From a virus, in IMG/VR virus record IMGVR_UViG_3300032299_001077, positions 1 to 49,854 of that record: 49,854 bases of DNA; one strand, 5' to 3'. Positions within the stretch are counted from its first letter, which is position 1. The number at the start of each line of letters is the position of its first letter. A program made the translations under genes and the position numbers. Below the pieces are notes generated by a model. That model made no database searches and was not told where the DNA came from. It saw nothing but the letters and a program-made list of their open reading frames with translations. Positions 10,211 to 42,642 of this stretch are shown piece after piece.

Positions 10211-10254
10211 CCCCCATCCAAGGGGGACAATGGGGAACGCTAGGAGGGAATCCC
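10211..10254 (+). promoter_or_regulatory. two-hairpin element, copy 1
   Basis: CCCCC-atccaa-GGGGG (10211-10226), then ACAAT and GGGGAA, then a weak GGG-aat-CCC hairpin. It shares the order C-run hairpin, GGGGG, 4-5 bases, GGGGAA with the copies at 10803, 12271 and 14053. This copy has no gene immediately downstream, and ends in an AATCCCGAAACAT motif. Confidence 0.4.
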
Positions 10255-10286
10255 GAAACATATTCCGCCACTATTAGCTACCTACT

Positions 10287-10312
10287 ACGGGGAGCAAACA
10301 AGCTTGCCCCGT
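10287..10312 (+). other. G/C-rich hairpin in the gene-free region
   Basis: ACGGGG AGC ... GCT (tg) CCCCGT can pair over 9 bp with a 2-base bulge. No U-tract follows, so not an intrinsic terminator. Probably part of a structured leader. Confidence 0.35.
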
Positions 10313-10519
10313 TCCCCTTGCCATAGGTTGGAGAGTGTAGCTTGTCCCCTTGTCCCCTTCCCATCCTAGCGGAGGAAATTGCCTTTCCCGCTTCCTCGCT
10401 TTGGGGGCATAGGACATTCCATGTCTCACCCCTTTCTCGCACTCGGCCAATGTCCCGCCTCAATTCTTAATTAGAACAATTCCAATTTGCCCCCGCTAAA
10501 ATTCAATTGAAAATTTCCC

Positions 10520-10548
10520 TTGCCAATATCCCGCCCCCCGTTTAGATT
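10520..10548 (+). promoter_or_regulatory. candidate sigma-70-type promoter
   Basis: TTGCCA (10520-10525), 17-base spacer, TAGATT (10543-10548), about 45 bases before the gene at 10595. A/T-rich sequence with repeated AATT lies upstream. This would drive the small-gene block. Confidence 0.5.
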
Positions 10549-10556
10549 GTCATCTG

Positions 10557-10576
10557 TCGGGGCAATCCCGCCCCGA
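10557..10576 (+). promoter_or_regulatory. leader hairpin before the gene at 10595
   Basis: TCGGGGC-aatccc-GCCCCGA is a perfect 7-bp hairpin placed just after the candidate promoter, so at the 5' end of the mRNA. It could stabilise the transcript. Confidence 0.5.
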
Positions 10577-10594
10577 TTAACTAAGGAAAAAACC

Positions 10595-10789
10595 ATGAAC
10601 GACCTACACGATTACATGACAGTTGAAGACGGAGACGTTGACTACCGCAAGTGGAACAATGCGGAATTACTGGAGCAATACGCAGAAACGGAGGACGATC
10701 AAATAGCGGAACATTTAAAGGATCGCGGGATTGATATACCTTCCGCCCGTTCTATTGCGGCAGTTTTTCGCAATTTTCCCCGCTCCTGA
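10595..10789 (+). CDS. small acidic protein
   Basis: A 64-residue protein from the ATG after AAGGAAAAAACC (a partial SD); upstream codons in frame lie in the promoter and are not used. Acidic N-terminal half (MTVEDGDVDYRKWNNAELLEQ), then helical. Not recognised. First gene after the promoter at 10520. Confidence 0.6.
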   Translation: MNDLHDYMTVEDGDVDYRKWNNAELLEQYAETEDDQIAEHLKDRGIDIPSARSIAAVFRNFPRS

Positions 10790-10802
10790 TTGATTCCCTA
10801 CA

Positions 10803-10843
10803 CTCTCCCCGATTCGTTCGGGGGGAGAAAGGGAACCATTCCC
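10803..10843 (+). promoter_or_regulatory. two-hairpin element, copy 2
   Basis: A 10-bp hairpin (arms 10803-10812 and 10818-10827, loop TTCGT) with arms CTCTCCCCGA and its complement, followed by AAA and a second hairpin GGGAA-cca-TTCCC (10831-10843). It ends 13 bases before the ATG at 10857, which has no SD. Confidence 0.55.
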
Positions 10844-10856
10844 GCATCAAATCACC

Positions 10857-11048
10857 ATGAAAAACACCAATCCATCAAATCGCATTGCGCTTCATGCGCG
10901 GTGCATCATTCGGAATCCGTCCCGCTTTGCCTTCTACGCTCACGGGATCATTCGGGAATTTAAAGAGGCTTCAGGCTTTGCCTTGTGCGTAGTCTTGAGT
11001 CTTTTTCTTTTCGGGCTCGGGCTCGTCAATTCGTTTTTTCAACACTAG
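10857..11048 (+). CDS. small membrane protein
   Basis: A 63-residue protein. The N-terminal 40 residues are basic (many Arg/His), followed by one clear membrane helix, FALCVVLSLFLFGLGLV, near the C-terminus. Positive-inside logic puts the N-terminus in the cytoplasm. ATG follows the two-hairpin leader and an AATCACC context. Confidence 0.5.
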   Translation: MKNTNPSNRIALHARCIIRNPSRFAFYAHGIIREFKEASGFALCVVLSLFLFGLGLVNSFFQH

Positions 11049-11056
11049 CGCCACCC

Positions 11057-11281
11057 ATGAAAATTGAAATCTATCCCGTTGGAGGGAACGCGGATGAATC
11101 TCCCCGCTTTGGCAAGGGGGACTGGGCAATCCATAGCCATGCATCCATCGATGGGCGCATTGCCTGCGGAATTAAGGGGCATTTCCTTTGCTGGGATACC
11201 TCTATTGAAGACCAAAGCGGACTGCCTACCTGCCCAAAATGCGCGGCCAAGGTTGCCAAGGTTAGAATGTCCTGCGATTGA
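11057..11281 (+). CDS. small putative zinc-binding protein
   Basis: A 74-residue protein from MKIEIYPVGG. C-terminal Cys and His residues (ACGIKGHFLCW, then CPKC, then a last Cys) could coordinate zinc. The pattern LCW-x(10)-PTCPKCAAKV resembles small zinc-finger proteins linked to gp88/DUF932 regions. Function not known. Confidence 0.55.
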   Translation: MKIEIYPVGGNADESPRFGKGDWAIHSHASIDGRIACGIKGHFLCWDTSIEDQSGLPTCPKCAAKVAKVRMSCD

Positions 11282-11316
11282 TTCCCGCCCGTGGTATCCT
11301 TAAAGACTAGAATCCC

Positions 11317-12255
11317 ATGAAAAAAACTACACGGAAGCGGAAATTCGCCGCTAAAAAAGCCTCCAAGGCTTTCATGCTCTCACTGTATGCGGGGGCAATG
11401 TCATGTGTTGCCCTTGGCAATGCGGAACCAATTAAGCCTATTCTCGCGGAACGGGCGCAATGGTGCGCGATTCATTCAAAGGCCAAGGATGGCGGGAAAG
11501 GATGGCGGGGAGCCTTGGAAAGGTTGGAATCGGGGAAACTCCCTGAGATTTTCGAGAATGGCAACGGAAAGCTTCCTTTCTATGCGTTTTCCTCCCTCGC
11601 GGGGATTGACTGTCCCCAAGCTGGATCATGCCTTTACGGGGCATCAGGAGACCTTCTAGGGGGATTCTGCTATTCCTTTAAATCTTGGAGATATCCCGCT
11701 GCTTTCATGCGTCAATTGATTAATTCAATCCGTCTTCGCACTAAGGCGGGGCGGGATGAGATAATTGCGGCTTGGATGGCACTCCCGCAAAATTCCATTG
11801 TCCGCTTGTATGTTGACGGAGACTTCGCGTCCCCTGAAATCCTCGCGTTTTGGATGCGCCTATGCTTTGCCCGTCCTGATCTTCAGGTTTACGGCTACAG
11901 TAAATCGTGGCGTTTGCTTCTGTCTTATGATTCTGCAACGGGCGGACGCTGGCCGAAAAACTACCTTCTGAACCTTTCAAGCGGGGGAAAGGGGACGGAG
12001 ACGGAAAAACAAGCTGTTTCCCGCCTTCCCATTGCGAGGGGCGAATTCATCGCGGTTAATACCGCCAAGGATCACGGGAGAGCCTACCAGAGCAAACGGA
12101 ATGCGGGATTCGCGGACTATGCGCGGGACGTTCGGGAAAGCGCGGGAAAGCGGGTTTTTGTCTGTTCGGGGAAATGCGGGGATTGCACACCCTCTGGCCA
12201 TGCCTGCGGATCTGAGAAGTTTCGGGGCGTCCCTATTGCTATTGGCGTCCACTGA
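11317..12255 (+). CDS. phage gene product 88-like protein
   Basis: A 312-residue protein. Residues about 90-240 follow the gp88-type pattern: FYAFSSLAGIDCPQAGSCLY, then FCYSFKSWRYPAAFMRQLINS, then VRLYVDGDFASPEILAFWMRL, then LQVYGYSKSW. The conserved cysteines and the GDF motif are present. The C-terminal CSGKCGDC...HAC adds a Cys cluster. The N-terminus is basic with a hydrophobic patch that mimics a signal peptide but is probably not one. Family knowledge: gp88-like genes are widespread in phages and mobile elements, function unproven; the cysteine pattern suggests a metal or Fe-S site. Confidence 0.75.
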   Translation: MKKTTRKRKFAAKKASKAFMLSLYAGAMSCVALGNAEPIKPILAERAQWCAIHSKAKDGGKGWRGALERLESGKLPEIFENGNGKLPFYAFSSLAGIDCPQAGSCLYGASGDLLGGFCYSFKSWRYPAAFMRQLINSIRLRTKAGRDEIIAAWMALPQNSIVRLYVDGDFASPEILAFWMRLCFARPDLQVYGYSKSWRLLLSYDSATGGRWPKNYLLNLSSGGKGTETEKQAVSRLPIARGEFIAVNTAKDHGRAYQSKRNAGFADYARDVRESAGKRVFVCSGKCGDCTPSGHACGSEKFRGVPIAIGVH

Positions 12256-12307
12256 GGCTTTTCCGCCTCTGCCCCTTTGGTGACAAGGGGGCAGCACGGG
12301 GAAACCC
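12254..12307 (+). promoter_or_regulatory. two-hairpin element, copy 3 (with extra hairpin)
   Basis: GAGGC-ttttcc-GCCTC (12254-12269) is followed by GCCCCTTTG-gtga-CAAGGGGGC (12271-12292, 9 bp with one G-U pair and a GNRA-type GTGA loop), then AGCA and CGGGGAAACCC (GGG/CCC). It lies between gp88 and the gene at 12329, whose start has no SD. Confidence 0.55.
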
Positions 12308-12328
12308 ACTAAACAACCAAAAAACCAT

Positions 12329-12661
12329 ATGATAACAAAAGATCAAGAGCTAAAAACCCTGAAAGAAACTGCCGCGAAGCTTGGCCCGAATTCCTACCTT
12401 GGCCCGTGGCTTGATTCGGTGGCCTTTGAACTGGAAGCAATGATGCGGGCGGATTCCTTCCCGTGCGTAAGCTTGGACGAATCCCGCCACTTTGCGGAAA
12501 AGATCGTCACGGAGGCGGAAAGGAAAGCGGAAACCATCATCGCCAACGCAAAACGGGACGCGAATGACCGCGAAGCAGCAGCAGAATCCCGCATTGATCG
12601 CGCAAGAATGCTCATTCGGGACGCATCGCAAAACCTCCTAGCGATTGAAGAAAGGCTCTAA
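12329..12661 (+). CDS. coiled-coil protein
   Basis: A 110-residue protein. N-terminal block LGPNSYLGPWLDSVAFELEAMM is recognisable from other phage hypothetical proteins. Residues about 50-105 form a long charged Ala-rich helix (EAERKAETIIANAKRDANDR). No SD; the ATG follows AAAAAACCAT. Confidence 0.6.
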   Translation: MITKDQELKTLKETAAKLGPNSYLGPWLDSVAFELEAMMRADSFPCVSLDESRHFAEKIVTEAERKAETIIANAKRDANDREAAAESRIDRARMLIRDASQNLLAIEERL

Positions 12662-12683
12662 GGCTAGTTTTTCCCGATATTCC

Positions 12684-12719
12684 CCCTTTAGTGACAGAGG
12701 GCGGGGTCCAATCCCCCGC
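12684..12719 (+). promoter_or_regulatory. two-hairpin element, copy 4, in a 333-base gap
   Basis: CCCTTT-agtgac-AGAGGG (12684-12701) resembles copy 3, including the GTGACA loop. It is followed by GCGGGG-tccaatc-CCCCGC (12701-12719), a perfect 6-bp hairpin. The gap 12662-12994 holds no gene. It also has GGTGACA-type repeats at about 12782 and 12812-12828 and the promoter at 12900. Confidence 0.45.
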
Positions 12720-12899
12720 TTTCCTGCCCGATTTTCGCGCTTTAAATGCCTCCACAATCAATTTTCTTTCCCGCCCCGCTATGGTGACACTCCCGAAAAT
12801 GCCGCCCCGTGACAAGGTGACAAGGTGCAAACCTCAACCTGTTTTTTCCCTTGGAATCATCGCCCGAAAACTTTCCTGAATTATTTTTAAAAAAACTAG

Positions 12900-12927
12900 T
12901 TGACAAACAACCTCCCCCTGCTACTTT
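12900..12927 (+). promoter_or_regulatory. promoter for the DUF932 gene
   Basis: A consensus -35 TTGACA (12900-12905), 16-base spacer, TACTTT (12922-12927). It lies after an A/T-rich run (ATTTTTAAAAAAAC) and about 70 bases upstream of the DUF932 start. It is the best sigma-70-like promoter I see in the plus strand. Confidence 0.6.
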
Positions 12928-12994
12928 TCATTTTATCGGAAGCAATTCCGCCTCCGACAAAAACCAAAAACCACAATAGAAAAAACGAAATACA

Positions 12995-14038
12995 ATGAGT
13001 CACAAAATTGAAAAACCGCATGACATGGTTCTCTCCATTCAGGGAACCGAATGGCATAAGCTTGCAACCCATCTTCCCGTTATCGGTGACGCTGAAGTTG
13101 CCCCTTTGCTGTTCCCCATTGTTGAGTCCCCTGCCTTTGTCACTATCGACGGGGTGCAAACCGCATTGGAAGACTACAAAGTCTTGGTCGCGGATCACCG
13201 CAAAGTTCGGCCCGATTTGATCGGATCGGATGCACTGGTTCCGCTTCACATTCCCAAGGCGGGATACAAAGTGATATCTAACCGCGAAATCTGGGAAGTG
13301 ATGCAAAAATCGCTTCGCGATCTGGATTGCAAAGTTACCAGTGTCTGCACACTTGAACGGGGCAAGAAATTCGCCATTTCCGCCGATATCGGATCTTCCA
13401 ATCTGGTTATCAATGGGGATAAATTCAAGGCAAACCTGAATTTTGTCACCTCGCATGACGGGACAATGGCACAAGAAACCTTCGACTCCGCCATTCGCGT
13501 TGTCTGCATGAACACCTTCCAGTGGTCACGGGATGCCGCGAAAGACAAATTCAAGGTTTACCATACCAAGAATGCGGAATTCGCGCTTGAAGGTTTGGGT
13601 GACCTCCTGAACGCTATCCTGAAGGGTCGCACTGAATTGGTCGAAGTGATGAAATACCTCGCAACCCATGCCTGTGATCCGAATGATGCGCTCGCAATGG
13701 CTTCGGGTTACTTCGCCATTACTACGGACGCGAAAGACAATAAACTGTCCACCCGTAGCCTTAACGCCGCGAAAGAGATTGCTCGCCTCGCCGCCAATGG
13801 TATCGGGAACCTCGGCAAGTCACTGTATGACCTTGCCAACGGCGCAACTGAATACTGGACCAGTGGCGAGGGAACGGGTCGCAATGCATCAATCGCTTCG
13901 CGAACCTATCGCTCGCAACTCGGATCGGCGGCAGACCATAAACGCCGCTTCATCGGAATGCTGGCGGATGAGGAGTCCCGCGATACCATGATGAATCGGG
14001 GCCGTGAGGCAGTCAGGCAAGCAGTCCTAGCTAACTAG
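12995..14038 (+). CDS. DUF932 phage/plasmid protein
   Basis: A 347-residue protein matching the DUF932 (phage/plasmid-like, TIGR03299-type) family. It shows the usual opening (WHKLATHLP), a YKVISNREIWEVMQ segment where the family has Y-x-V-v-p-n-x-e, the FAISADI strand, NFVTSHDGTMA and VVCMNTF. It extends to the C-terminal helix YDLANGATEYWTSGEGTGR, which carries the family's Y-n-x-v-T-e-y-x-d-h-like end. Found in phages and conjugative elements, function unknown, linked to DNA metabolism or anti-defence only by context. It has its own promoter and probably high expression. Confidence 0.8.
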   Translation: MSHKIEKPHDMVLSIQGTEWHKLATHLPVIGDAEVAPLLFPIVESPAFVTIDGVQTALEDYKVLVADHRKVRPDLIGSDALVPLHIPKAGYKVISNREIWEVMQKSLRDLDCKVTSVCTLERGKKFAISADIGSSNLVINGDKFKANLNFVTSHDGTMAQETFDSAIRVVCMNTFQWSRDAAKDKFKVYHTKNAEFALEGLGDLLNAILKGRTELVEVMKYLATHACDPNDALAMASGYFAITTDAKDNKLSTRSLNAAKEIARLAANGIGNLGKSLYDLANGATEYWTSGEGTGRNASIASRTYRSQLGSAADHKRRFIGMLADEESRDTMMNRGREAVRQAVLAN

Positions 14039-14052
14039 GGTTGTCCCGTCTG

Positions 14053-14098
14053 TCCCTCCGCCAATTCGGGCGGGGGGATAGCAGGGGGAACCTTCCCC
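14053..14098 (+). promoter_or_regulatory. two-hairpin element, copy 5
   Basis: TCCCTCCGCC (14053-14062) pairs with 14069-14078 through 10 bp (one G-U), loop aattcg. Then TAGCA and GGGGAA-cc-TTCCCC (14085-14098). The ATG of the next gene follows after AATAAACCACACC. This is the clearest copy. Confidence 0.6.
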
Positions 14099-14112
14099 GA
14101 ATAAACCACACC

Positions 14113-17918: not shown

Positions 17919-17954
17919 AGAGGGGGTGGGAGCAATCCTGCCTCCTCTTTTTTT
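17919..17954 (+). terminator. intrinsic terminator ending the small-gene block
   Basis: A G-rich arm AGAGGGGGTGGG (17919-17930) pairs imperfectly with CCTGCCTCCTCT (17937-17948) and is followed at once by seven T (17948-17954). The ATG of the next gene begins on the very next base, so that gene needs read-through or a leaderless or internal start. Confidence 0.7.
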
Positions 17955-22995: not shown

Positions 22996-25900
22996 CTAGC
23001 GTCCGCTGCGGATTCGTTTTATTTCTTTCTCGCGGTCTTTGGCCGCGCTCATCATGTCGCGGCGAGCCTTGCCAACGAGTCGGGCAAAGTCAGCATCGTT
23101 CAGACGCATCATGTAAAGCCACTCGGAGAGGGCGGAGAAGTAGAGAAGGCGCTGCTCTTCAGGCGTATACATCTCCATCTCTTCAGGGGTTGCCAGCATC
23201 TTGGTCTGCAAGGCAACCTGCTCGGCTTGGCCCAAACCAATCTCCAGCATCCCCAAACTCATGGCATTGTCGAAAGACTGGTAGCGGTAGAACGGGGAAC
23301 GCTCTTTAGAATACTGGTCATAGGACATGACCTCGCCCTCTTCATTTAGGATGGAGTCATTCTCAAGCTGGAGGGAAACCAGATACGAGGCGCGATTCAT
23401 GGCATCAATAAACTTAGATTCCACGATCTGCGGTGTGCCGCCAACCAGCAAGTTGCCAGTAATGTCCGCGAGAAACTGTCTCCAATTCTTGTTTGCTTCT
23501 TCCTTCTGTTTCTCTTCATCGGGCTCCTCCATATCCACACCCATGAGGCCGTAGAGAACACCAATACCAGCACCAGATATAGCAGGGATGACGTATCGCT
23601 TGGTTGTGTGGAAAAGAATAAGACCACCGATTGTTCCAGAAAGCCCGCCTACCCCACTCTTGCTCCCACTGATGGCATCACGCGCATCGGAGTAGAGCCT
23701 CATGCGTTGCTGGATGGCAAAGGAATTGAATGGAACAAAGATTGCTTTGACCAGATTCTCCCAACCAGTCTTTCCGCTTTGGGCAAACGTAGCCATGGAG
23801 GTCGGGTCGCTTGAACCCTGATAGATGTCGGTCATCTGCTCGGCAAACGCCGCCGCCTGACGCCTTGCTGGATCGGATTCAATTAGATCCGCTTCCTTAG
23901 ACCAGTCATCAATCTTGATGTCCTGCTTGTTTAGTTCACCCTCGTAGTAGGTCATCCATGCTGCGGAAGCTGCCAAGAAGTCGGAGGACTTGAGGGCAAT
24001 CATCCATACATCGGCAATCTTTCCAGCCTGCTCCTTGGCCTGATCCCACTTGCTCTCACTAAAGTAACGCTCAAGGCGGTTCTGATGGCCTTCCATCTGG
24101 TTGATGTATTTGTAACCAGCAGAGGCATCGCCACGGCGACCAATGGAAAATTTATTAAGGAGGGTTCTTGCCAGTTTTTGCGTCTTGGGTGCAATGTTCT
24201 TAGCAAGAAGATCTCCTCGGCCACCACTTCCCCATGCTGTGATAAGCTGGTCGGGTGGCTGTTTGATCCACTGGTAGATACCGCCAAGGGCAATACCAGT
24301 GCCAAGTTTGCGCGAAATAACACTGAGTGAATCCACAGCCTTCTCAATAGCCCCGCCACTCCCCATCGATCCACGGCGCATACGGGAAAGCCGCAAACGA
24401 TTGAGGCGTTCAATAAAGAAATCCTTGTTGGCTGCACCACCAAAGACAACCTCGGCTTCTGGGGTCTTCATAAAGGAAGCAATGCGCTGCCATCCACTGG
24501 ACGTATAAGCCTTGTTGATCTGGTCGGAGAGACCATTGAACACGTTGCGACGAAGATTGAATTCAATTTCCTTTGGTCTCTTGGTGGTGCGATCCTTGGG
24601 AATCTCCGTGTAGTCAACACGCTTGATGGTGTAAGCAGACTGCTTCGGGCGCAGGCTCACTTGGTCATAGAACAGGCTCTGCTCTTCGGGGGTGATGGCG
24701 AGTGACGGGCCAGCAGAGGTAAATCCAATTGTAAGATAGTTTGGATTCTCGTAGTTGTTGGCTTGGTCATTGAAGTTCTCGTCAAAGCTCTTCAGGAAAT
24801 CCTTGTATTGCGGAAGCAGGGTATCCTTATACCAGATCAGGGATTCATAGTTCGGGCGAAACTCGCGCTTCATGTTGTTGAGGATTGCCTCAACACTGTC
24901 CCCATCAATTTGATTTAGAATAGTTTCAATGCGATCCGCCATGGCAACACGATCTGGTTCTGTGGTTGACCTTCTGCGATTGGCTATATCCTGACGGATC
25001 AGGTCTCGGCGTTGATTGATGGAGGTGACCTCGTCCTTCTTGGGAACGGACTGAATCAGGAATCCAACCACACCCTCGGCCAAGAGACCATCTTGGTTTC
25101 GGGCTGCTGCCTTGTATTTCTTTTCAAGGTTGCGATGGAACTCCGCGATCTTCTCTTGGATCTCATCAATCGTATTGTTCGCCTTGGTGAATCCAAGGTT
25201 GAGGTCAAGCATACCCATGGCATCGTACATCTTTGCCATTGCTCCCTTGCCAAACGCATTGCGGAATGTGTCAGCAATAGATTGCAACTCAAGAGCCCAC
25301 CCACGTTGCATCCTCTCGGAGATGAAGCGTGGGAGAAGGTTAATCCAAGCGCGATTCTTGGCCACCATGGTGGGATCTTGCGCTGCCTCGCGGGCACTCT
25401 GCTGACCCTTGGCAACAGCGACAAAGTATTCCGCTCCATTGGTCTGGTTGTTGTAAATGATATTGTTTGTGATGCGAATGAAACGCTGGCGCTCTTCGGG
25501 GTCAAGCGCCTTGGGATCAACCTTCAGCATGGAAGAAACAATCGAACGCTGATCTGCTCGCAGGTTGTCTGTATCGTAACCACGCAATCCCTGCTGAGTC
25601 TCGACAGCCTTCTCGGTCAATAGGTTCTCCAGTGCATCTCTGTTTTCTTGGGCTTCGATTTGTTTGATGATGTCAATTGACTCCATCATTTGATCAACTT
25701 GGTCTGGTTCTATTCCGTATTTTTTGGCCAGACGCTCATTGGCCTCGCGGTCAAGATCCCGCTGGTTCCTTTGGGTCTCGGACTGGGCTCCCGAAAGATA
25801 GCTCTCCATCTCGGCATCAGGGATAACCACATAATCAGGTGACAGGACAGCCTTGAATCCACGCAAGTAGTAGTTCACAGCCTCGGCAAACATGCGGGGA

Positions 25901-28900
25901 TCATCCAGCTTGTTGACAGGGATCTTGCTAACGTCTTCAAGCACCTCGCGCTGCGGACCCATCGCCACCTTCTTCTGGGTGGAAAGTTGTTTGGCCCTCT
26001 TCTGTGCATCCTTGGCCTCGCGGAGATCGGCATCGTAGTTGGCGTTTTCCACAACTTTGGCTGCGTATTCAGAGAAAGCCTCAACACTCTTTTCGCTCGT
26101 CCAAATAACACGGGCCGCACGTTTGGCTAAAGCCTGAACCTGCTTCGGGCGCACGGGGCCAAGCAGTTCCATAGCTTTGATAATCTCAACCACCTCTTCT
26201 GCGGTGCGCTTCTGCTCTGCTTTAGCTGCTCGGTTGGCTGCGGCCTTGAGTCGGATCTGGTCTTTAAGCGCGGCCTTTTCATTGACCTGAATCTTGACAG
26301 GGGGAACCCGAACCCCCATGAACACATCAAAGAGGCGAGACATGACGGGCTTCGGACGATCAGGGTCAACCTCCTTGGGTAGAGTCACCCCTTCAGGTAG
26401 GGCTTCGACAGACAATCCCGTTTGGGTTTCAATGAATGCTGTAGCGATGGACTGCTGGATATCGTATTGCTTGGCAATGGCATTAGCCACCTTCGCTGCA
26501 TTAACTGGACTGAGATTGGTATTCTCCGTAATGGCATCCTGTAATGCGCGTTCGTCTCCACCTTGCTCCATCCAGTTTGCTGCGATCTCGCTCACCTTTT
26601 GGGTTGTGGGCTTTCCTCCTTTGGCTTCGGACGCCGCATCCACCTTGGCCATAGATGCCTTAAGATTAGAGAGAGTCTTTGCTTCGGGGCTGTCGATAAC
26701 GAATGAGGGTTTGGGTTCGGGCTCAAGACCCAAGGGATTGTATGCCTTGCCGTAGGTGATGCCTGTCGGCCTTGCTTCTAGCTTGGCGTTCTTAACAAAA
26801 ACGCGAGAGCCAACCATGATTGCTTCGGTTCCGCCAACCACGGCATCCTTGCTGCGGACATCCACAAAGTAGCTAGAACGGATCGGATTGTAACCAACTT
26901 CAGTCCAGACATTGGGATCGTTGATGTCTGTGGGAAGTTCGGTGATTGGTTCGTAGTTACCTTTGACTGTAGCCAGCGGGAACTTGCCAGCACCAGCGGC
27001 GATCTCAGCAGCAGAACCCTTGCCAGAAATCGCTCTGGTCATAAATGTTGGATTTGTAACTTTAGCTACACCGACATATGCATACGCCTCGCCAACACGC
27101 TTGCTCGTTTCTGGAACCGATTCATGGGCGGTAATGTTGTATACAGTATCACCAGCCGTTGTTGACCTATTATATGTATTAATATCTATTCTGAATTCAT
27201 ATTCAGAACCTTCCTGAAGACGGGGATTTCCTTTTTCATCAAGGAATCCCACCCTGCCAACTTTGTCACTCTGGATGTATTGTTTAATTTTGTCATCAGT
27301 TGGAATAGGATCTGCGCCCTTGGCCGTAAACGGATCGATGGCATCCACCAAGTCGGCATAGTCTCCAGCGGTGATCTGCCCGTTCTTTAGCCTTACTGCG
27401 GCTACTGCGAGTTGCGGGCTTCGCGCCAGAATTTTATTGGTTGATGCCTTGTCGAAAGCCTTGCGCTCCTCATCTGTATTCGGGGTGTATTCGCGATTAA
27501 TATCCTCCCTCTGCCGCATCGCATACCTAATCTGATCCGAAACATCTTCGGCGTAGTTGTAGTCCTGCGGTTGGTAAATCTGGAATGGTCGGGCAACACT
27601 GCCCATGCGTTGAAGATCAATCTTTTGATTGGGATCGGTAACTAGATTGTAGAAAGATTGGTAGGAATCTCGCCCAAGCTTGGCTTGGATCTGAGCCATA
27701 AATTCCTTAATGATCTTGGCCAACTTGCCCATGAATGTGTTGGGCACAGCCTGACGGCTTTCGACCAGATCGGTCATCTTCTCGGCAATCCACTCGTCCA
27801 ACATGATGTATCGATAGTTCTCCGCATCATATCTGATTTGGTATTTGACAACGTTTCCTTCAGAATCTTGAACGGGAACCAATTTGGTTTCTGCTTCTTC
27901 AGGATTGAAGATCTTGTATGCCTCGTATTGTTCTGGGGTGAGGCTATAGCGTCCAACAAAAGCAAGAAACCAAGGGTTGTTATCGATGTATTTCGTAAGT
28001 TCCCTCGTGTAGTCCTTGCTCATGCTTTCCAGTTCGGCCTTCGGCAAGAAGCGGGAAAGACCGTGCCAGAACTCATGGACACCAACCCTTGCCCCGACCT
28101 TGGGCTGGTCTTGAGTCAGGAAGAAGCTAACCAGACTTTGGCCAAAATCAAAGTTGCTCACGCCGCCCCCACCCTTGATTGAGATAGCTGTGTCTCCAAT
28201 GGCTTCCTCGCGGATGGAGTTGACGAAGTCAGTGAGGGCTCGCGCAGTTTCTTCTGAAAGCTTGCCACCACTACGCTCCCGTGCGATGCGCTCTAGGATG
28301 GCGGCTTTGCCTCTGGCGCGGGGGCGCTGCCTTCTTTCGGCCTCGGCCTTGACCCGATCCCGAAGCGCCGTAGCCTCTTTGACCACATTGTTAACAGCCT
28401 TTAATGGCCCATCAGTGCGACCAGCTTTGATGTCTTCGACTACTGTGGAGATATCATATCCCAACGGGTTAAGTCTTACGTCTTCCCTGCGGGATTCTCT
28501 TACTTCGGGGGCGGGCCTTTCTATTTTCTGAACTTCATTCGGTGCAAGCGTTTGGTATCCCCCGCGCTGTAGCCTTACTTCAACTTTGCCATCTGGCATT
28601 ATGCGAGTGACCGATCCCGCAACTAACTCATCTCTTCCGCCAACAACTCGACCACCCTCATAAGTGGGAACCCTATTAGTGACGCGAACCATTTCACCTT
28701 TTGCAAATGTTGTAGCTTCGGGTGCTACTTCCTGCGGTGCGGGCGGAACATAGATATCCTCTACCAGAGTCCAGCCTGCGGGCATACGCACACCTGTTCC
28801 AACCTGATCCACCCCGATACGAAGGCCCTTCGCGATGGCTTCGGCTACTACTTCGTTTGATCCTGTGTCGATTTGGATCTTTCGGGCTTCGGGCGTCAGC

Positions 28901-31770
28901 CTTGGGCGTTCTGCTTCGGGCAACTGGGCAATCCCTGTCTCCGTAAGCACTGGTTGATCTTTATACACCTCGACCAACCCCGCATCCACCAAGGAAGGAA
29001 CATCTTCTGGGGCTTGTTCTGCTCTTGCTACTCGGCGTAGAGGTTCAAGATTCGGGGTCGGGGCCACGGTAGTAGGTTCGGGCCTTTTTTCAACTTGTTG
29101 CACAATTCCTTCTTGAGATTTTGCCGCATCTTCGTTGATGACCAAGATGTGTTTAACGGGGCCAGCTTCGGTATCGTGCATCATTGCCACCGAATCATAG
29201 CCGCGACTCTTTAGCCATTGGGCGAAGAGAGATCCGCGAACATCATCTTTTCTCTGTTTGTTTATACCGCGAGCTACAAGATCCGCGCCAACAACGCTAG
29301 TGCTATTCCTGAAGTATTGCCAAGCGGGATCAGCACCACCCTCCCCATCCCCGCCGACAATTAAAAATCCGTAATCGTCTAGTTCCTTGTTTACTTCTGG
29401 GCGAACATCTTTCCATTTCCAGTTTTCTGGCAGCGGATACCCCATCTCTTTGGAGATAAGCTCGACCATCTTGAACTGGTCGGCCATCACACCCATCTCT
29501 GTCATGTCGAATGTCTTCTTCGGGCGGATCACCTTGGATATTACTTGTCCTTCAGTCCTTGGATCAAAGCCGTGAAGGGTTCTGAATGTTTTGAGACCCT
29601 CTTCTTCACCGAATCGGTCTTGGTATTCCTTGAGCATTCGGGCGTCTCGCTCCAGATACCCTCTGGCGTCCTGCTCGCTTGTGCTGTAGTAGGTAAATGG
29701 AGCAAGGACTCGGCTATCCTGTATTCCCATGATAGACCCTATATCTTGGATGTCTGCGAGTTGTCTTCCGCCTTCTATGGCTGGGAGTTCGCCGCGATAC
29801 ACCGTGATAGGCTCGCCACCTTCTTCTGGCTCCACCTCGGCGGGAGGAGCCACTGCGGGGGCAGTTAGCGTTACAGGGGCTGGTGCCTGCCTAGCTTCTA
29901 CGAGTCCATCGCTGGGTCTTTGTTCGGGATTTTGTGGGTTGACCATGCGGTTTTGTGCCGCATCCCACACCCATCCAGCATTCACAAGATCCTTGACGGC
30001 ATTGCCAGCCTCCAGTTCGGATCTTGTTCCAATAGCGGCAGACATCGCATCCTCATCTGTGCCAATGACACCAGACGCATTTACCTGTGATATTGTTTCG
30101 TCAAAAACAGTTGGCTGATACGGAGTTCCGTCATCATTGTGGGTTCGCCCGCCGCGACGATCTGTGCCATATTGTTCATCCCATGCATCTTTCCGATTGC
30201 GAAAGTCTCCAATAGGTTCGCCCTCTTGGCGGACTGGCCGTGCCTCCACTGCTGCTTCGGCGCGGGGCGCAAGATTTGGCGATGGCTGGTCTGCTGGCGC
30301 GACTTCTGCGGATGGCTGCGGCTCTGCTACTACTGGCTCGACTACTGGCTCTACAGGGGCTACAGCGGGTGTTATGGGGGCTTCTGCTGTGGTGGTGACG
30401 GGTTGAGGGGGTAACCCCGAAACAGGAACTTCTTCTTCTAATTCTATTCCTGCTGCTGCGGCAGCTTCTTTTTGGAGGCGAACCACTCGCTGTTCAGGGG
30501 TTTCGGCTTGTTCCTGAATAACACTTTCAGCCTGTCCCTCGACAAGTGCGGCAGTTTCTGGAGCCACATCTTTGTTCTGCCTTGCCACATCCTGAGTTTC
30601 GGACGCCGCCGCCAATGATTCTTCTTTTGTTGCTGGTTGTGTTCGCGGTTCGATGGCACCAGCGCCAGCACCAAGCCCAACACCAACAAGACCCTCAAGT
30701 GCGCCCTGAGAGAAAACCCCCTGAGTAAGCGAGACATTAACTCCCTCGCGCTGCAATGCCAAATTAGAAGCAAACTTTTCTTGTGCCGCCTGAATAAATT
30801 CTGGAGCGCCTTCAGAAATACCATTCTTAAGGATGTTGCCAACGCGACTGACATTCGGGGCAAGACCGCCCTTGGTCAGCACCTTGCTAATAATCTTTTC
30901 AGCACCAGTAAATGCGTCAATAGTTCCAAGCCCCGCGCCAATTAAAATCTGATCCAGATTCTTTCCGCCATAGGATTGGGCTTCCGTGGCAATCTGACGG
31001 GCCTCTTCTTCGGTTTTACCCTGTGCCAACATCTCATCTTTGACCGATTGGTAGATCTCGCCCTTAACAATACCAGCACCCATTCCAGCGCCAGTGGCAA
31101 GTTGAGTAGCCTGAACGCCGCGCTGAACAAACTGTGCAGCTTTTGCACCAGTCAAGCCTGCACGGGCCGCGCCAGCTAACGCCGCCGCTCTACCCGCAAC
31201 ACCAGTAGCCACAAACGTGGCGAGAGATCCAACTCCCGAAGCAACAAAATCTACGGGGGCTACAGAGAATGCTTCAAGACCAGCGCCAAGCTGATCCAAG
31301 ACTCCTTCGTTTTCAGCCTCTTGCAGAATGCGCCCAATCTCCTGCTCGTCTTCAATGGCTTGCGCCGAAAGAAGGGAGCGATACCAATCCGCATTCTGGG
31401 TGAGATTTTGGGAGATGGCATTATCCGCACCAAATAGATCAGTCAGAGCCCGAAGACTGGTATTGATACTCTCACCAATCTTGAGCGGAACATCAGCAGC
31501 CTGACGCAAGAACCCCTCTTCTCCAGTTACAGGAATGGGTTCAGTGGGCTCTGGCAATCCAAAAAACTCTTCTTCGGATATGGGAGTGAAGCGTGACTTG
31601 GGAGCCTCAACGGGCTCGGTGGTTTCTTGTGCAATTACAGGTTCGGGAGCCTCCTCTTCCCCACCAATGCCGAAAAACTCATCGTCCTCTATAGGAATGA
31701 ACCTAGGTTTTGCCTCTTCGGCCACAGGCTCATCGATGATTTCCTCTTCATCTATGGGTGTAAATGCCAT
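22996..31770 (-). CDS. giant polyvalent virion-type protein (2,924 residues) with ART and zincin domains
   Basis: Residues 1-71 repeat a short acidic motif F-x-P-I-x-(D/E)-(D/E)-E three times (3-13, 24-35, 61-71). About 160-390 is Gly/Ala-rich and hydrophobic with membrane-active helices. About 400-640 is Pro/Ala/Glu-rich linker. About 650-860 looks like an ADP-ribosyltransferase of polyvalent proteins (VYRGE, YYSTSEQDARGYL, GYDSVAMMHD). Residues 1232-1236 are HEFWH, a HExxH zinc motif, with DEW E1326 as a possible third ligand. About 1500-1680 has a VGYNPIRSSYFVDVR block seen in such proteins. About 1900-2900 is long helical sequence, with a hydrophobic segment near 2733. The design suits an internal virion protein ejected into the host, carrying enzymatic domains. 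It is the last gene of the structural operon. Confidence 0.8.
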   Translation of the reverse strand: MAFTPIDEEEIIDEPVAEEAKPRFIPIEDDEFFGIGGEEEAPEPVIAQETTEPVEAPKSRFTPISEEEFFGLPEPTEPIPVTGEEGFLRQAADVPLKIGESINTSLRALTDLFGADNAISQNLTQNADWYRSLLSAQAIEDEQEIGRILQEAENEGVLDQLGAGLEAFSVAPVDFVASGVGSLATFVATGVAGRAAALAGAARAGLTGAKAAQFVQRGVQATQLATGAGMGAGIVKGEIYQSVKDEMLAQGKTEEEARQIATEAQSYGGKNLDQILIGAGLGTIDAFTGAEKIISKVLTKGGLAPNVSRVGNILKNGISEGAPEFIQAAQEKFASNLALQREGVNVSLTQGVFSQGALEGLVGVGLGAGAGAIEPRTQPATKEESLAAASETQDVARQNKDVAPETAALVEGQAESVIQEQAETPEQRVVRLQKEAAAAAGIELEEEVPVSGLPPQPVTTTAEAPITPAVAPVEPVVEPVVAEPQPSAEVAPADQPSPNLAPRAEAAVEARPVRQEGEPIGDFRNRKDAWDEQYGTDRRGGRTHNDDGTPYQPTVFDETISQVNASGVIGTDEDAMSAAIGTRSELEAGNAVKDLVNAGWVWDAAQNRMVNPQNPEQRPSDGLVEARQAPAPVTLTAPAVAPPAEVEPEEGGEPITVYRGELPAIEGGRQLADIQDIGSIMGIQDSRVLAPFTYYSTSEQDARGYLERDARMLKEYQDRFGEEEGLKTFRTLHGFDPRTEGQVISKVIRPKKTFDMTEMGVMADQFKMVELISKEMGYPLPENWKWKDVRPEVNKELDDYGFLIVGGDGEGGADPAWQYFRNSTSVVGADLVARGINKQRKDDVRGSLFAQWLKSRGYDSVAMMHDTEAGPVKHILVINEDAAKSQEGIVQQVEKRPEPTTVAPTPNLEPLRRVARAEQAPEDVPSLVDAGLVEVYKDQPVLTETGIAQLPEAERPRLTPEARKIQIDTGSNEVVAEAIAKGLRIGVDQVGTGVRMPAGWTLVEDIYVPPAPQEVAPEATTFAKGEMVRVTNRVPTYEGGRVVGGRDELVAGSVTRIMPDGKVEVRLQRGGYQTLAPNEVQKIERPAPEVRESRREDVRLNPLGYDISTVVEDIKAGRTDGPLKAVNNVVKEATALRDRVKAEAERRQRPRARGKAAILERIARERSGGKLSEETARALTDFVNSIREEAIGDTAISIKGGGGVSNFDFGQSLVSFFLTQDQPKVGARVGVHEFWHGLSRFLPKAELESMSKDYTRELTKYIDNNPWFLAFVGRYSLTPEQYEAYKIFNPEEAETKLVPVQDSEGNVVKYQIRYDAENYRYIMLDEWIAEKMTDLVESRQAVPNTFMGKLAKIIKEFMAQIQAKLGRDSYQSFYNLVTDPNQKIDLQRMGSVARPFQIYQPQDYNYAEDVSDQIRYAMRQREDINREYTPNTDEERKAFDKASTNKILARSPQLAVAAVRLKNGQITAGDYADLVDAIDPFTAKGADPIPTDDKIKQYIQSDKVGRVGFLDEKGNPRLQEGSEYEFRIDINTYNRSTTAGDTVYNITAHESVPETSKRVGEAYAYVGVAKVTNPTFMTRAISGKGSAAEIAAGAGKFPLATVKGNYEPITELPTDINDPNVWTEVGYNPIRSSYFVDVRSKDAVVGGTEAIMVGSRVFVKNAKLEARPTGITYGKAYNPLGLEPEPKPSFVIDSPEAKTLSNLKASMAKVDAASEAKGGKPTTQKVSEIAANWMEQGGDERALQDAITENTNLSPVNAAKVANAIAKQYDIQQSIATAFIETQTGLSVEALPEGVTLPKEVDPDRPKPVMSRLFDVFMGVRVPPVKIQVNEKAALKDQIRLKAAANRAAKAEQKRTAEEVVEIIKAMELLGPVRPKQVQALAKRAARVIWTSEKSVEAFSEYAAKVVENANYDADLREAKDAQKRAKQLSTQKKVAMGPQREVLEDVSKIPVNKLDDPRMFAEAVNYYLRGFKAVLSPDYVVIPDAEMESYLSGAQSETQRNQRDLDREANERLAKKYGIEPDQVDQMMESIDIIKQIEAQENRDALENLLTEKAVETQQGLRGYDTDNLRADQRSIVSSMLKVDPKALDPEERQRFIRITNNIIYNNQTNGAEYFVAVAKGQQSAREAAQDPTMVAKNRAWINLLPRFISERMQRGWALELQSIADTFRNAFGKGAMAKMYDAMGMLDLNLGFTKANNTIDEIQEKIAEFHRNLEKKYKAAARNQDGLLAEGVVGFLIQSVPKKDEVTSINQRRDLIRQDIANRRRSTTEPDRVAMADRIETILNQIDGDSVEAILNNMKREFRPNYESLIWYKDTLLPQYKDFLKSFDENFNDQANNYENPNYLTIGFTSAGPSLAITPEEQSLFYDQVSLRPKQSAYTIKRVDYTEIPKDRTTKRPKEIEFNLRRNVFNGLSDQINKAYTSSGWQRIASFMKTPEAEVVFGGAANKDFFIERLNRLRLSRMRRGSMGSGGAIEKAVDSLSVISRKLGTGIALGGIYQWIKQPPDQLITAWGSGGRGDLLAKNIAPKTQKLARTLLNKFSIGRRGDASAGYKYINQMEGHQNRLERYFSESKWDQAKEQAGKIADVWMIALKSSDFLAASAAWMTYYEGELNKQDIKIDDWSKEADLIESDPARRQAAAFAEQMTDIYQGSSDPTSMATFAQSGKTGWENLVKAIFVPFNSFAIQQRMRLYSDARDAISGSKSGVGGLSGTIGGLILFHTTKRYVIPAISGAGIGVLYGLMGVDMEEPDEEKQKEEANKNWRQFLADITGNLLVGGTPQIVESKFIDAMNRASYLVSLQLENDSILNEEGEVMSYDQYSKERSPFYRYQSFDNAMSLGMLEIGLGQAEQVALQTKMLATPEEMEMYTPEEQRLLYFSALSEWLYMMRLNDADFARLVGKARRDMMSAAKDREKEIKRIRSGR

Positions 31771-40518: not shown

Positions 40519-42642
40519 ATGGCCACTGAATATCCCCCTTTAGGAAAACCATTTGTTGCTGAATACCGCTACGGCAATCGGGATTTTCCAGTAATTCACA
40601 TCAAAAAAGATCCAAGGGTTGATAATTACAGGGCCCCCGAAGTTGGTGATCCATGTCCTGATAAACGCTTCCCAAGTCATACTTTTATTCAGGCATTACC
40701 CACCAACTCTGATGAGAGGGTATTGTGGGTCTACGAAAAGCTGGACGGGCCCGTTATTACTGGTCGGATTTTGGACAATGACGGCAACTACGCCACACTT
40801 TCTCGTCAACCCGTAGCCGCTGGGGCAGAAGCTGATGCTGGATATGGAGTAATTTCCAGCGCAATCACTCCAGAAAATCAGGCGTTTGGAGTTAAGCAAA
40901 CTGTTCGTGTTGATGAGTTTGCGCCACTTACGGGATTTCAAATCGATCCTCGCTATGGCGTGACCCTTGAATACAGCAAGCAACTGGTAGATGCGGCTAC
41001 TGCTGTTGGAGGTGTAGACGGGCTTGAATCGGTAGAAATTGAGCCCAAAAACCAATTTCATAGTTGGAGGCTATCTACAAAATTAGCACAGCTTCCTGCT
41101 GATCAAGTTTGGTATGGCTACCGCAAAGAGTCATTTCCTGATGTTTTGACTGATCTTCAAATTGTTGGCACTGAAAACTTTCAACCCATTCCAGCTTGGA
41201 GAGTGGCTCCCGACATGCCCCTTCGGGCTAAGTTCACTCGAAAGTTTAGCCTTGGGGCACCACCTGAACCAGCACCACAACTTTCTCCGCGCTATTGGGC
41301 TGAACCGTTTTATATCGCCATTGAATATTTAAGGGTGTCTGAAAGCCAATCAGAAACCACATCTTCCTCTACATCTTCTGGAACCACATCTTCAACCAAT
41401 TCTTCGACACAAAGCTCCACCTCCAGTGGCACACAATCCTCAACAAATAGCTCAACTCAAAGCTCTACCAACTCCTCCGCTCAAAGCTCCACCAATTCGG
41501 GCACACAATCTTCAACCTCAAGCGGAACCAGTAGCGGAACTTCTAGTGGGACAAATAGCTCTACTAATAGCGGAACCCAGTCTTCGACAAGTTCCTCAAC
41601 CAGCAGCGGGACAAGTTCTTCCACTTCTTCTTCGACTAATAGCGGAACCCAATCATCAACAAATTCTGGCACATCAAGCTCGACCAATAGCGGGACGCAG
41701 TCTTCGACCAACAGTGGAACAAGTTCCTCTACAAGTTCAGGAACATCAAGCTCAACTAACAGTGGTACGCAATCTGGAACACAGAGCGGAACCCAATCTT
41801 CAACTTCTTCAGGAACACAAAGCGGAACGTCTTATTCTGAAGGAGATGGATCAAGCTCTACGGCAGAGTCGCAGTCTGGAGCAGTTCTGGTTTCTAACAC
41901 ACCGACAAACCGAGTTTCTTCGGGCCAACAATCTGGCACTTCAAGCGGCACTAACTCATCCACTAACAGTGGAACATCTTCCTCTACAACAAGTGGAACC
42001 AATTCCTCTACATCTTCTGGTACACAATCTTCAACCACTAGCGGGACATCTAGTTCTACTTCGTCTGGTACAGCCTCATCAACCAATTCTGGAACAACCA
42101 GTTCAACCAATTCTGGAACCTCCAGTTCCACCAACAGTGGGACTCAGTCAGGAACATCTTCTGGAACCACATCCTCGACAAGTAGTTCAACTTCCAGTTC
42201 TACAAACTCTGGAACTTCCAGCGGAACAACCTCTTCAACACAATCCTCCACCAACTCCTCCACCTCGTCTTCTACCAATAGTGGAACGAGTTCCTCTACA
42301 AGTTCAGGAACCACATCATCTACCTCAAGCGGAACCAGTAGTTCTACAAATTCTGGAACCTCCAGTTCTACCTCCTCTGGAACCAACTCTTCTACAAACA
42401 GTGGAACGTCCGAAAATTCAACAATATCTCGCGGAAAATCCATATTCAATTTGACAATACCCAAATGCCTTCGTAGTGATATTCCTGTGACCTTGCCCAG
42501 TGGAGAAACCTTTATCATTCCCGCCACTAAACAAGCCGACCTTAACTGGGGAAGTTATGTTGAAGTTGCCCGCCAAAGCGAACACTGGAAACAGGGCATT
42601 TGGATTACCGAAATAACCGAGGTTTACTTACCAGAACTTTAA
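40519..42642 (+). CDS. tail/appendage-type protein with long Ser/Thr/Gly repeat domain
   Basis: A 707-residue protein. Residues 1-275 form a beta-rich globular domain (FVAEYRYGNRDFPVIHIKKD, RVLWVYEKLDGPVITG, WYGYRKESFPDVLTDLQIVG). Residues about 280-630 are almost only Ser, Thr, Gly, Asn and Gln in 4-residue units of type x-S-(S/G)-T, broken once near 440-470 by YSEGDGSSSTAES and VLVSNTPTNRVSSGQQ. Residues about 630-707 are a C-terminal beta domain (IPVTLPSGETFIIPATK, WITEITEVYLPEL). It resembles a virion protein interrupted by a mucin-like linker that could be flexible or O-glycosylated. First gene of a four-gene plus-strand tail block. Confidence 0.65.
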   Translation: MATEYPPLGKPFVAEYRYGNRDFPVIHIKKDPRVDNYRAPEVGDPCPDKRFPSHTFIQALPTNSDERVLWVYEKLDGPVITGRILDNDGNYATLSRQPVAAGAEADAGYGVISSAITPENQAFGVKQTVRVDEFAPLTGFQIDPRYGVTLEYSKQLVDAATAVGGVDGLESVEIEPKNQFHSWRLSTKLAQLPADQVWYGYRKESFPDVLTDLQIVGTENFQPIPAWRVAPDMPLRAKFTRKFSLGAPPEPAPQLSPRYWAEPFYIAIEYLRVSESQSETTSSSTSSGTTSSTNSSTQSSTSSGTQSSTNSSTQSSTNSSAQSSTNSGTQSSTSSGTSSGTSSGTNSSTNSGTQSSTSSSTSSGTSSSTSSSTNSGTQSSTNSGTSSSTNSGTQSSTNSGTSSSTSSGTSSSTNSGTQSGTQSGTQSSTSSGTQSGTSYSEGDGSSSTAESQSGAVLVSNTPTNRVSSGQQSGTSSGTNSSTNSGTSSSTTSGTNSSTSSGTQSSTTSGTSSSTSSGTASSTNSGTTSSTNSGTSSSTNSGTQSGTSSGTTSSTSSSTSSSTNSGTSSGTTSSTQSSTNSSTSSSTNSGTSSSTSSGTTSSTSSGTSSSTNSGTSSSTSSGTNSSTNSGTSENSTISRGKSIFNLTIPKCLRSDIPVTLPSGETFIIPATKQADLNWGSYVEVARQSEHWKQGIWITEITEVYLPEL
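41359..42410 (+). repeat. codon-shuffled 12-bp coding repeat array
   Basis: About 1.05 kb encodes roughly 85 tetrapeptides (S-S-G-T, N-S-S-T, Q-S-S-T). The protein repeats are regular, but Ser, Thr and Gly codons vary freely (AGC, TCT, TCC, TCA, AGT), so the DNA repeats are imperfect. Antisense frames in this stretch are artefacts of the repeats. Confidence 0.85.

Follow-up and report, generated by a model that had tools for sequence, protein, structure and literature searches.

The window, meaning the whole stretch of DNA that was analysed, is a 49.9 kb IMG/VR virus record (49,854 nt). Small genes, a GP88-family gene, a 110-aa gene and a DUF932-family gene follow one another on its plus strand, with more small genes after 14038 (Table 1). 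Three of the junctions between these genes hold copies of one RNA element, at 10787-10843 (site C), 12253-12310 (site B) and 14036-14098 (site A). Junctions 11048/11057 and 11281/11317 lack it, although the latter retains a remnant, just the beginning of an element (TGATTCCCGCC, 11279-11316); relatives L005, L010 and L016 carry a complete one there. The early gene cluster is followed by the strongest intrinsic-terminator-like hairpin of the 8-18 kb region (17919-17948; 13 bp, then TTTTTT). Further along, the minus strand holds a single open frame of 2924 codons (22996-31770), two tested parts of which (22999-25200 and 25201-27999) had no PHROGs match, and a predicted protein at 40519-42642 contains a long Ser/Thr-rich repeat (SSGTSSSTNSGTQ...).

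Table 1. Genes and element parts in the early gene cluster, in order of position.
Feature	Position	Strand	Sequence	Basis or remark
Small gene	10595-10789	+		Upstream of site C
Site C, stop codon of the 10595-10789 gene, pre-arm and arm 1	10787..10802	+	TGATTGATTCCCTACA	MFE fold; scan match 10794
Site C, hairpin 1	10803..10827	+	CTCTCCCCGA TTCGT TCGGGGGGAG	Scan, folding, covariation
Site C, arm 2, loop 2 and arm 3 (hairpin 2)	10828..10843	+	AAAGGGAACCATTCCC	Scan, strand-exchange test
Site C, G-poor leader	10844..10856	+	GCATCAAATCACC	Precedes ATG 10857
Small gene, 63 aa	10857-11048	+		Downstream of site C, ATG 10857
Small gene	11057-11281	+		
GP88-family gene	11317-12255	+		Pfam GP88 match; upstream of site B
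Site B, stop codon of the GP88-family gene, pre-arm and arm 1	12253..12268	+	TGAGGCTTTTCCGCCT	Pfam GP88 match, lower stem
Site B, hairpin 1, GUGA tetraloop	12269..12294	+	CTGCCCCTTTG GTGA CAAGGGGGCAG	Anchored covariation test
Site B, arm 2 and weak arm 3	12295..12310	+	CACGGGGAAACCC	Hairpin 2 just 3 bp in this site B subtype
Site B, A/C-rich leader	12311..12328	+		Precedes ATG 12329; read from sequence
110-aa gene	12329-12661	+		Downstream of site B
DUF932-family gene	12995-14038	+		Upstream of site A
Site A, stop codon of the DUF932 gene, pre-arm and arm 1	14036..14049	+	TAGGGTTGTCCCGT	Folding, strand-exchange test
Site A, hairpin 1, 13 bp	14050..14081	+		Alignment, covariation
Site A, arm 2, loop 2 and arm 3 (hairpin 2)	14082..14098	+	CAGGGGGAACCTTCCCC	Folding, strand-exchange test
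Site A, A/C-rich leader	14099..14112	+	GAATAAACCACACC	Precedes ATG 14113

Each element is read in the same order from the stop codon of the upstream gene. A pre-arm is followed by arm 1, frequently TTCCC, and by hairpin 1; after 2-4 nt come arm 2, frequently GGGGAA, then a short loop and arm 3, frequently TTCCCC; a leader then runs to the ATG of the next gene. Nearly all of 43 strict matches place arm 1 at 0-12 nt from the upstream stop, those without a nearby stop including weak or off-junction ones; in site B orthologues the gap reaches 15 nt. Arm 3 is separated from the ATG by an 8-29 nt leader that is nearly free of G. The initial annotation had described a two-hairpin leader in five copies, of which those at 10803, 12271 and 14053 prove to be homologous members of one RNA family, each followed by the A/C-rich leader and ATG that it had noted in three cases. 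The name leader fits in so far as an ATG does follow, but the anchor is the upstream stop codon, which makes the element intercistronic. A covariance model built solely from site B (12253) and its orthologues finds site A at an E value of 8e-4 and 10794-10835 at 0.03 within the window. In related phages, where such a search had been proposed, it matches dozens of copies. Rfam gave no hit in the window at the gathering score, and chance matches alone at E up to 10.

The two other proposed copies, at 10211 and 12684, do not belong to the family; both were missed by the architecture scan and the covariance model, and folding gives no such structure. Position 12684 falls in a different non-coding block (12662-12994), conserved among relatives, on the 5' side of the DUF932 gene. 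This block contains a AAGGTGACAAGGKGC motif that is invariant in relatives, a small covarying hairpin (GCGGGG..CCCCGC / GCGGAG..CTCCGC) and a promoter-like pair, TTGACA-N16-TACTTT, at 12900-12927. The GTGACA loop reported for two copies is for the most part a GUGA (GNRA-type) tetraloop closed by G-C, and does not hold as a conserved sequence signal; GUGA is one among several stable loops in the family, as is UUCG, and no loop or bulge sequence is common to all copies. In relative L004 (5439-5953), GGTGACA occurs six times against 1.2 expected in the locus, mostly 5' of the DUF932 gene and outside hairpins, and may in addition act as a signal of its own, at the DNA or the RNA level.

Across 198 kb, the architecture scan returned 31 matches at a score of at least 50, against a mean of 0.2 (maximum 1) in dinucleotide shuffles and none on the reverse strand. 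Since the scan itself selects for pairing, covariation was tested separately. At site B, anchors placed outside the helix were used to read it inward in 12 unique orthologues. All 108 cells of hairpin 1 were paired, and compensatory comparisons numbered 173, compared with 33.8 once columns were shuffled; sliding the helix by 1-2 bases lowered pairing to 49-60%. Over 35 distinct sequences, 314 of 315 hairpin 1 cells were paired. These included 42 G-U pairs against one A-C, an imbalance that marks the gene-sense RNA, as judged from the sequences, as the molecule under selection. In a model-fitted alignment of 36 distinct copies, which leans towards the structure, 98.9% of cells were paired (51-61% in slid versions) and 126 cells were doubly changed, compared with 30.4 in shuffles. 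When strands were exchanged among unrelated copies, pairing as good was reached in one of 2000 derangements for the lower stem and in none of 2000 for hairpin 2; this test covers only seven site groups of hand-split sequences, with L008_B off by one base, and its hairpin 2 part left out the weak site B copies. At the level of sequence, then, hairpin 1 is proven by covariation, and the two mutually exclusive pairings both covary, each matched to its own element. The compensating arms noted earlier are confirmed by homologues. At the orthologous site in relatives, site C hairpin 1 reads CTCCCCGTGG...CGCGGGGAG. The proposal of a cis-acting RNA element family is thus strongly supported, and the result named as refuting it, a lack of covariation in homologues, was looked for and the opposite found. 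The initial observation is partly confirmed: it was largely right, and the case is stronger than it stated, but it had missed the stop-codon start, arm 1 and the mutually exclusive pairing.

Arm 2 has two possible partners. In the long form given by folding, the pre-arm together with arm 1 forms base pairs with arm 2, loop 2 and a portion of arm 3. The product is a single imperfect hairpin, 20-25 bp long and interrupted by a small internal loop, with a lower stem of 7-15 bp and an upper stem of 9-13 bp capped by a short loop, often UUCG or GUGA. At site C, 10787..10802 pairs with 10830-10843 in the MFE fold, and at site A AGGGUU pairs with AACCUU of loop 2 and arm 3. In the alternative form, arm 2 pairs with arm 3, so that hairpins 1 and 2 stand directly before the unstructured leader and ATG; the leader is unpaired in both states. 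RNAalifold picks the long form at site B and hairpin 1 with hairpin 2 at site A. The lower stem was found in every copy examined and takes in the stop codon itself in the L010, L009 and L123 copies (UAAAGCA:UGCUUUA, UGAAGCA:UGCUUCA), whereas little is left of hairpin 2 in L010 site C and in six or more orthologues of site B, the window's own site B belonging to the weak subtype. Because the lower stem is universal and hairpin 2 is nearly lost in the site B subtype, the long hairpin is favoured as the primary function; it is the predicted default fold, with arm 2:arm 3 as the alternative. Internal loops vary among copies (GU/CA, CCU/CA, bulged A).

Members of the family occupy intergenic positions in about 20 related IMG/VR contigs. 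The DUF932 protein is encoded in 12 viral contigs at 80-84% identity and the GP88 protein in nine, and alignment searches added more distant ones. Distant DUF932 and GP88 relatives are without the element. No family match occurs in the whole records of DUF932 relatives L124 and L125, and in distant relatives L125-L129 the same gene is followed by a typical U-tailed terminator. The whole records of 13 phages hold one to five matches each, a few being the same hairpin on the opposite strand, and the several copies per genome lie in one early gene cluster. The genes around the element are exchanged. In all close relatives, site A lies directly 3' of the DUF932 stop, with at least eight gene families downstream; site C always precedes one small gene family and follows at least six others; site B follows GP88 or another gene family, with at least six families downstream; and some genes stand behind different elements. 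A broad pattern search of viral contigs gave mostly chance matches outside this phage group, and narrower patterns added one contig, L168. Isolated phages (INPHARED) had no DNA match, and two genome scans for prophage relatives that would place the host found none.

It had also been suggested that the element controls initiation independent of a Shine-Dalgarno (SD) sequence. This role is not specifically supported, since most gene starts in the window are without an SD sequence whether or not an element precedes them; the lack is genome-wide and points to an SD-poor host. Translational bypass of the T4 gene 60 type was rejected as well, as the stop-to-ATG distances (77, 76 and 70 nt) do not share a reading phase and each downstream gene starts at an ATG of its own.

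RNA stability or processing is our best guess for the role: at the gene joints of a shared messenger, the RNA is probably cut or shielded by the element. We tentatively favour an intercistronic processing signal like T7 R1.1, in which arm 2 refolds after cleavage into a protective 5' hairpin, a reading that is plausible while falling short of an even chance. At the gene junctions of a polycistronic early-region transcript, the long hairpin would serve as the signal for a double-strand-specific RNase (RNase III), and the cut may fall on the 3' side close to the internal loop, following the pattern of T7 R1.1. Hairpin 1 would then cap the 3' end of the upstream mRNA, and the freed arm 2 could pair anew with arm 3, forming a 5'-terminal hairpin that shields the downstream mRNA while its leader stays accessible to ribosomes. 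Such processing and refolding would account for the retention of both exclusive pairings, for the start of hairpin 2 at 3-4 nt after hairpin 1, and for a lower stem that is universal beside a hairpin 2 that is occasionally lost. Like T7-type RNase III signals, the element is intercistronic and forms an imperfect hairpin, roughly two helical turns long and broken by an internal loop. However, cleavage is a guess and the internal loops differ among copies, while junctions 11048/11057 and 11281/11317 evidently work without the element, which counts against processing. The near absence of hairpin 2 in some copies also means that 5' protection would not be essential everywhere.

The stop-codon start and the two partners of arm 2 are also accounted for by a switch gated by the terminating ribosome, the main rival. 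A ribosome terminating at the upstream stop would cover the pre-arm and arm 1 and allow arm 2:arm 3 to form, the long hairpin forming otherwise, and the two states would set ribosome access to the leader, making expression of the next gene dependent on translation of its predecessor. A lower stem that starts at the stop codon, or includes it, suits this arrangement, as do the conservation of both pairings and the placement of arm 3 within reach of the initiation complex (8-29 nt from the ATG). The variable distance from stop to arm 1, the unpaired leader in either state and the loss of hairpin 2 from several orthologues speak against it, and we consider it unlikely, if the first alternative to keep in mind. 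Rather unlikely, too, is the broader claim of a new class, a bistable switch anchored at the stop codon that senses termination of the previous gene and resets the next leader in an SD-free translation system. The hairpin could instead act uncut, as a passive insulator or as a 3'/5' stability hairpin, a barrier to exonucleases and drifting ribosomes that also keeps upstream structure away from the next leader; its great stability, its tetraloops, the freely varying loop sequences and a leader unstructured in all folds agree with this. A passive role gives no account of arm 2 matching both arm 1 and arm 3, and we likewise hold it to be rather unlikely.

The variety of neighbours (at least eight downstream families at site A, at least six upstream at site C, genes behind different elements) would be expected of a conserved linker for the exchange of gene cassettes between phages, comparable with the PeSL cassettes of T4-like phages, the subject of Comeau et al. 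(2014), listed in the references of PMC5931544. The G-U bias and tetraloops show selection at the RNA level, and copies within one genome are too different for exchange between sites, leaving this as a quite improbable main function; modular exchange can be a further effect, but did not give rise to the covariation. An operator for a phage or host RNA-binding protein would fit the clustering of several copies in each genome, but no loop or bulge sequence is conserved across them, and this reading is very improbable. The U-tailed terminator after the DUF932 gene of L125-L129 invites comparison with a transcription terminator. An intrinsic one is ruled out, as no U run follows either hairpin, and even a degenerate or factor-assisted terminator is most improbable, with an open reading frame beginning 8-29 nt downstream and no room for a promoter. 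A promoter inside the element was rejected for the same lack of room.

The element is a previously unlisted RNA family, clearly real, with unusually dense covariation, and fixed at gene junctions of uncultured phages. Its conserved alternative folds offer a testable model of how neighbouring genes are controlled in an operon without Shine-Dalgarno signals while the genes themselves are exchanged. By processing or coupling, it would offer a portable means of separating operon genes in SD-poor hosts.

Several known systems share parts of this design. Ribosome-controlled attenuators of the erm/trp type have mutually exclusive arms 1:2 and 2:3, and here too exclusive helices are conserved, although some orthologues have a weak hairpin 2 or have lost it. 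In contrast to those attenuators, the element has no leader peptide, sequestered SD or U-tailed terminator, and any ribosome involved would be one terminating on a full gene. The PeSL promoter-stem-loop cassettes of T4-like phages reportedly place stem-loops at gene joints whose neighbouring genes are shuffled. The element is likewise a joint where neighbouring genes are exchanged; it differs in having two exclusive folds and neither promoter nor terminator tail, a scan for an early promoter at these junctions having found none, with 8-29 nt to the ATG leaving no room. T7 R1.1, which lies between genes 1.0 and 1.1, is a 60 nt signal that has a 4/5 internal loop and is cut to 47+13 nt (PMC6121014). 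Both are hairpins of about 60 nt between early genes, built of a lower stem, an internal loop and an upper stem, but the element's stem starts at a stop codon, a third arm is a rival partner for arm 2 and gives a second hairpin, an SD-less leader follows, and cleavage is presumed. In E. coli, 5'-terminal stem-loops stabilise mRNA (Emory et al., 1992; Bouvet and Belasco, 1992, as cited in PMC3997798). Unlike these ompA-type structures, hairpin 2 would become 5'-terminal solely after the presumed cleavage; like them, it is followed by a single-stranded leader.
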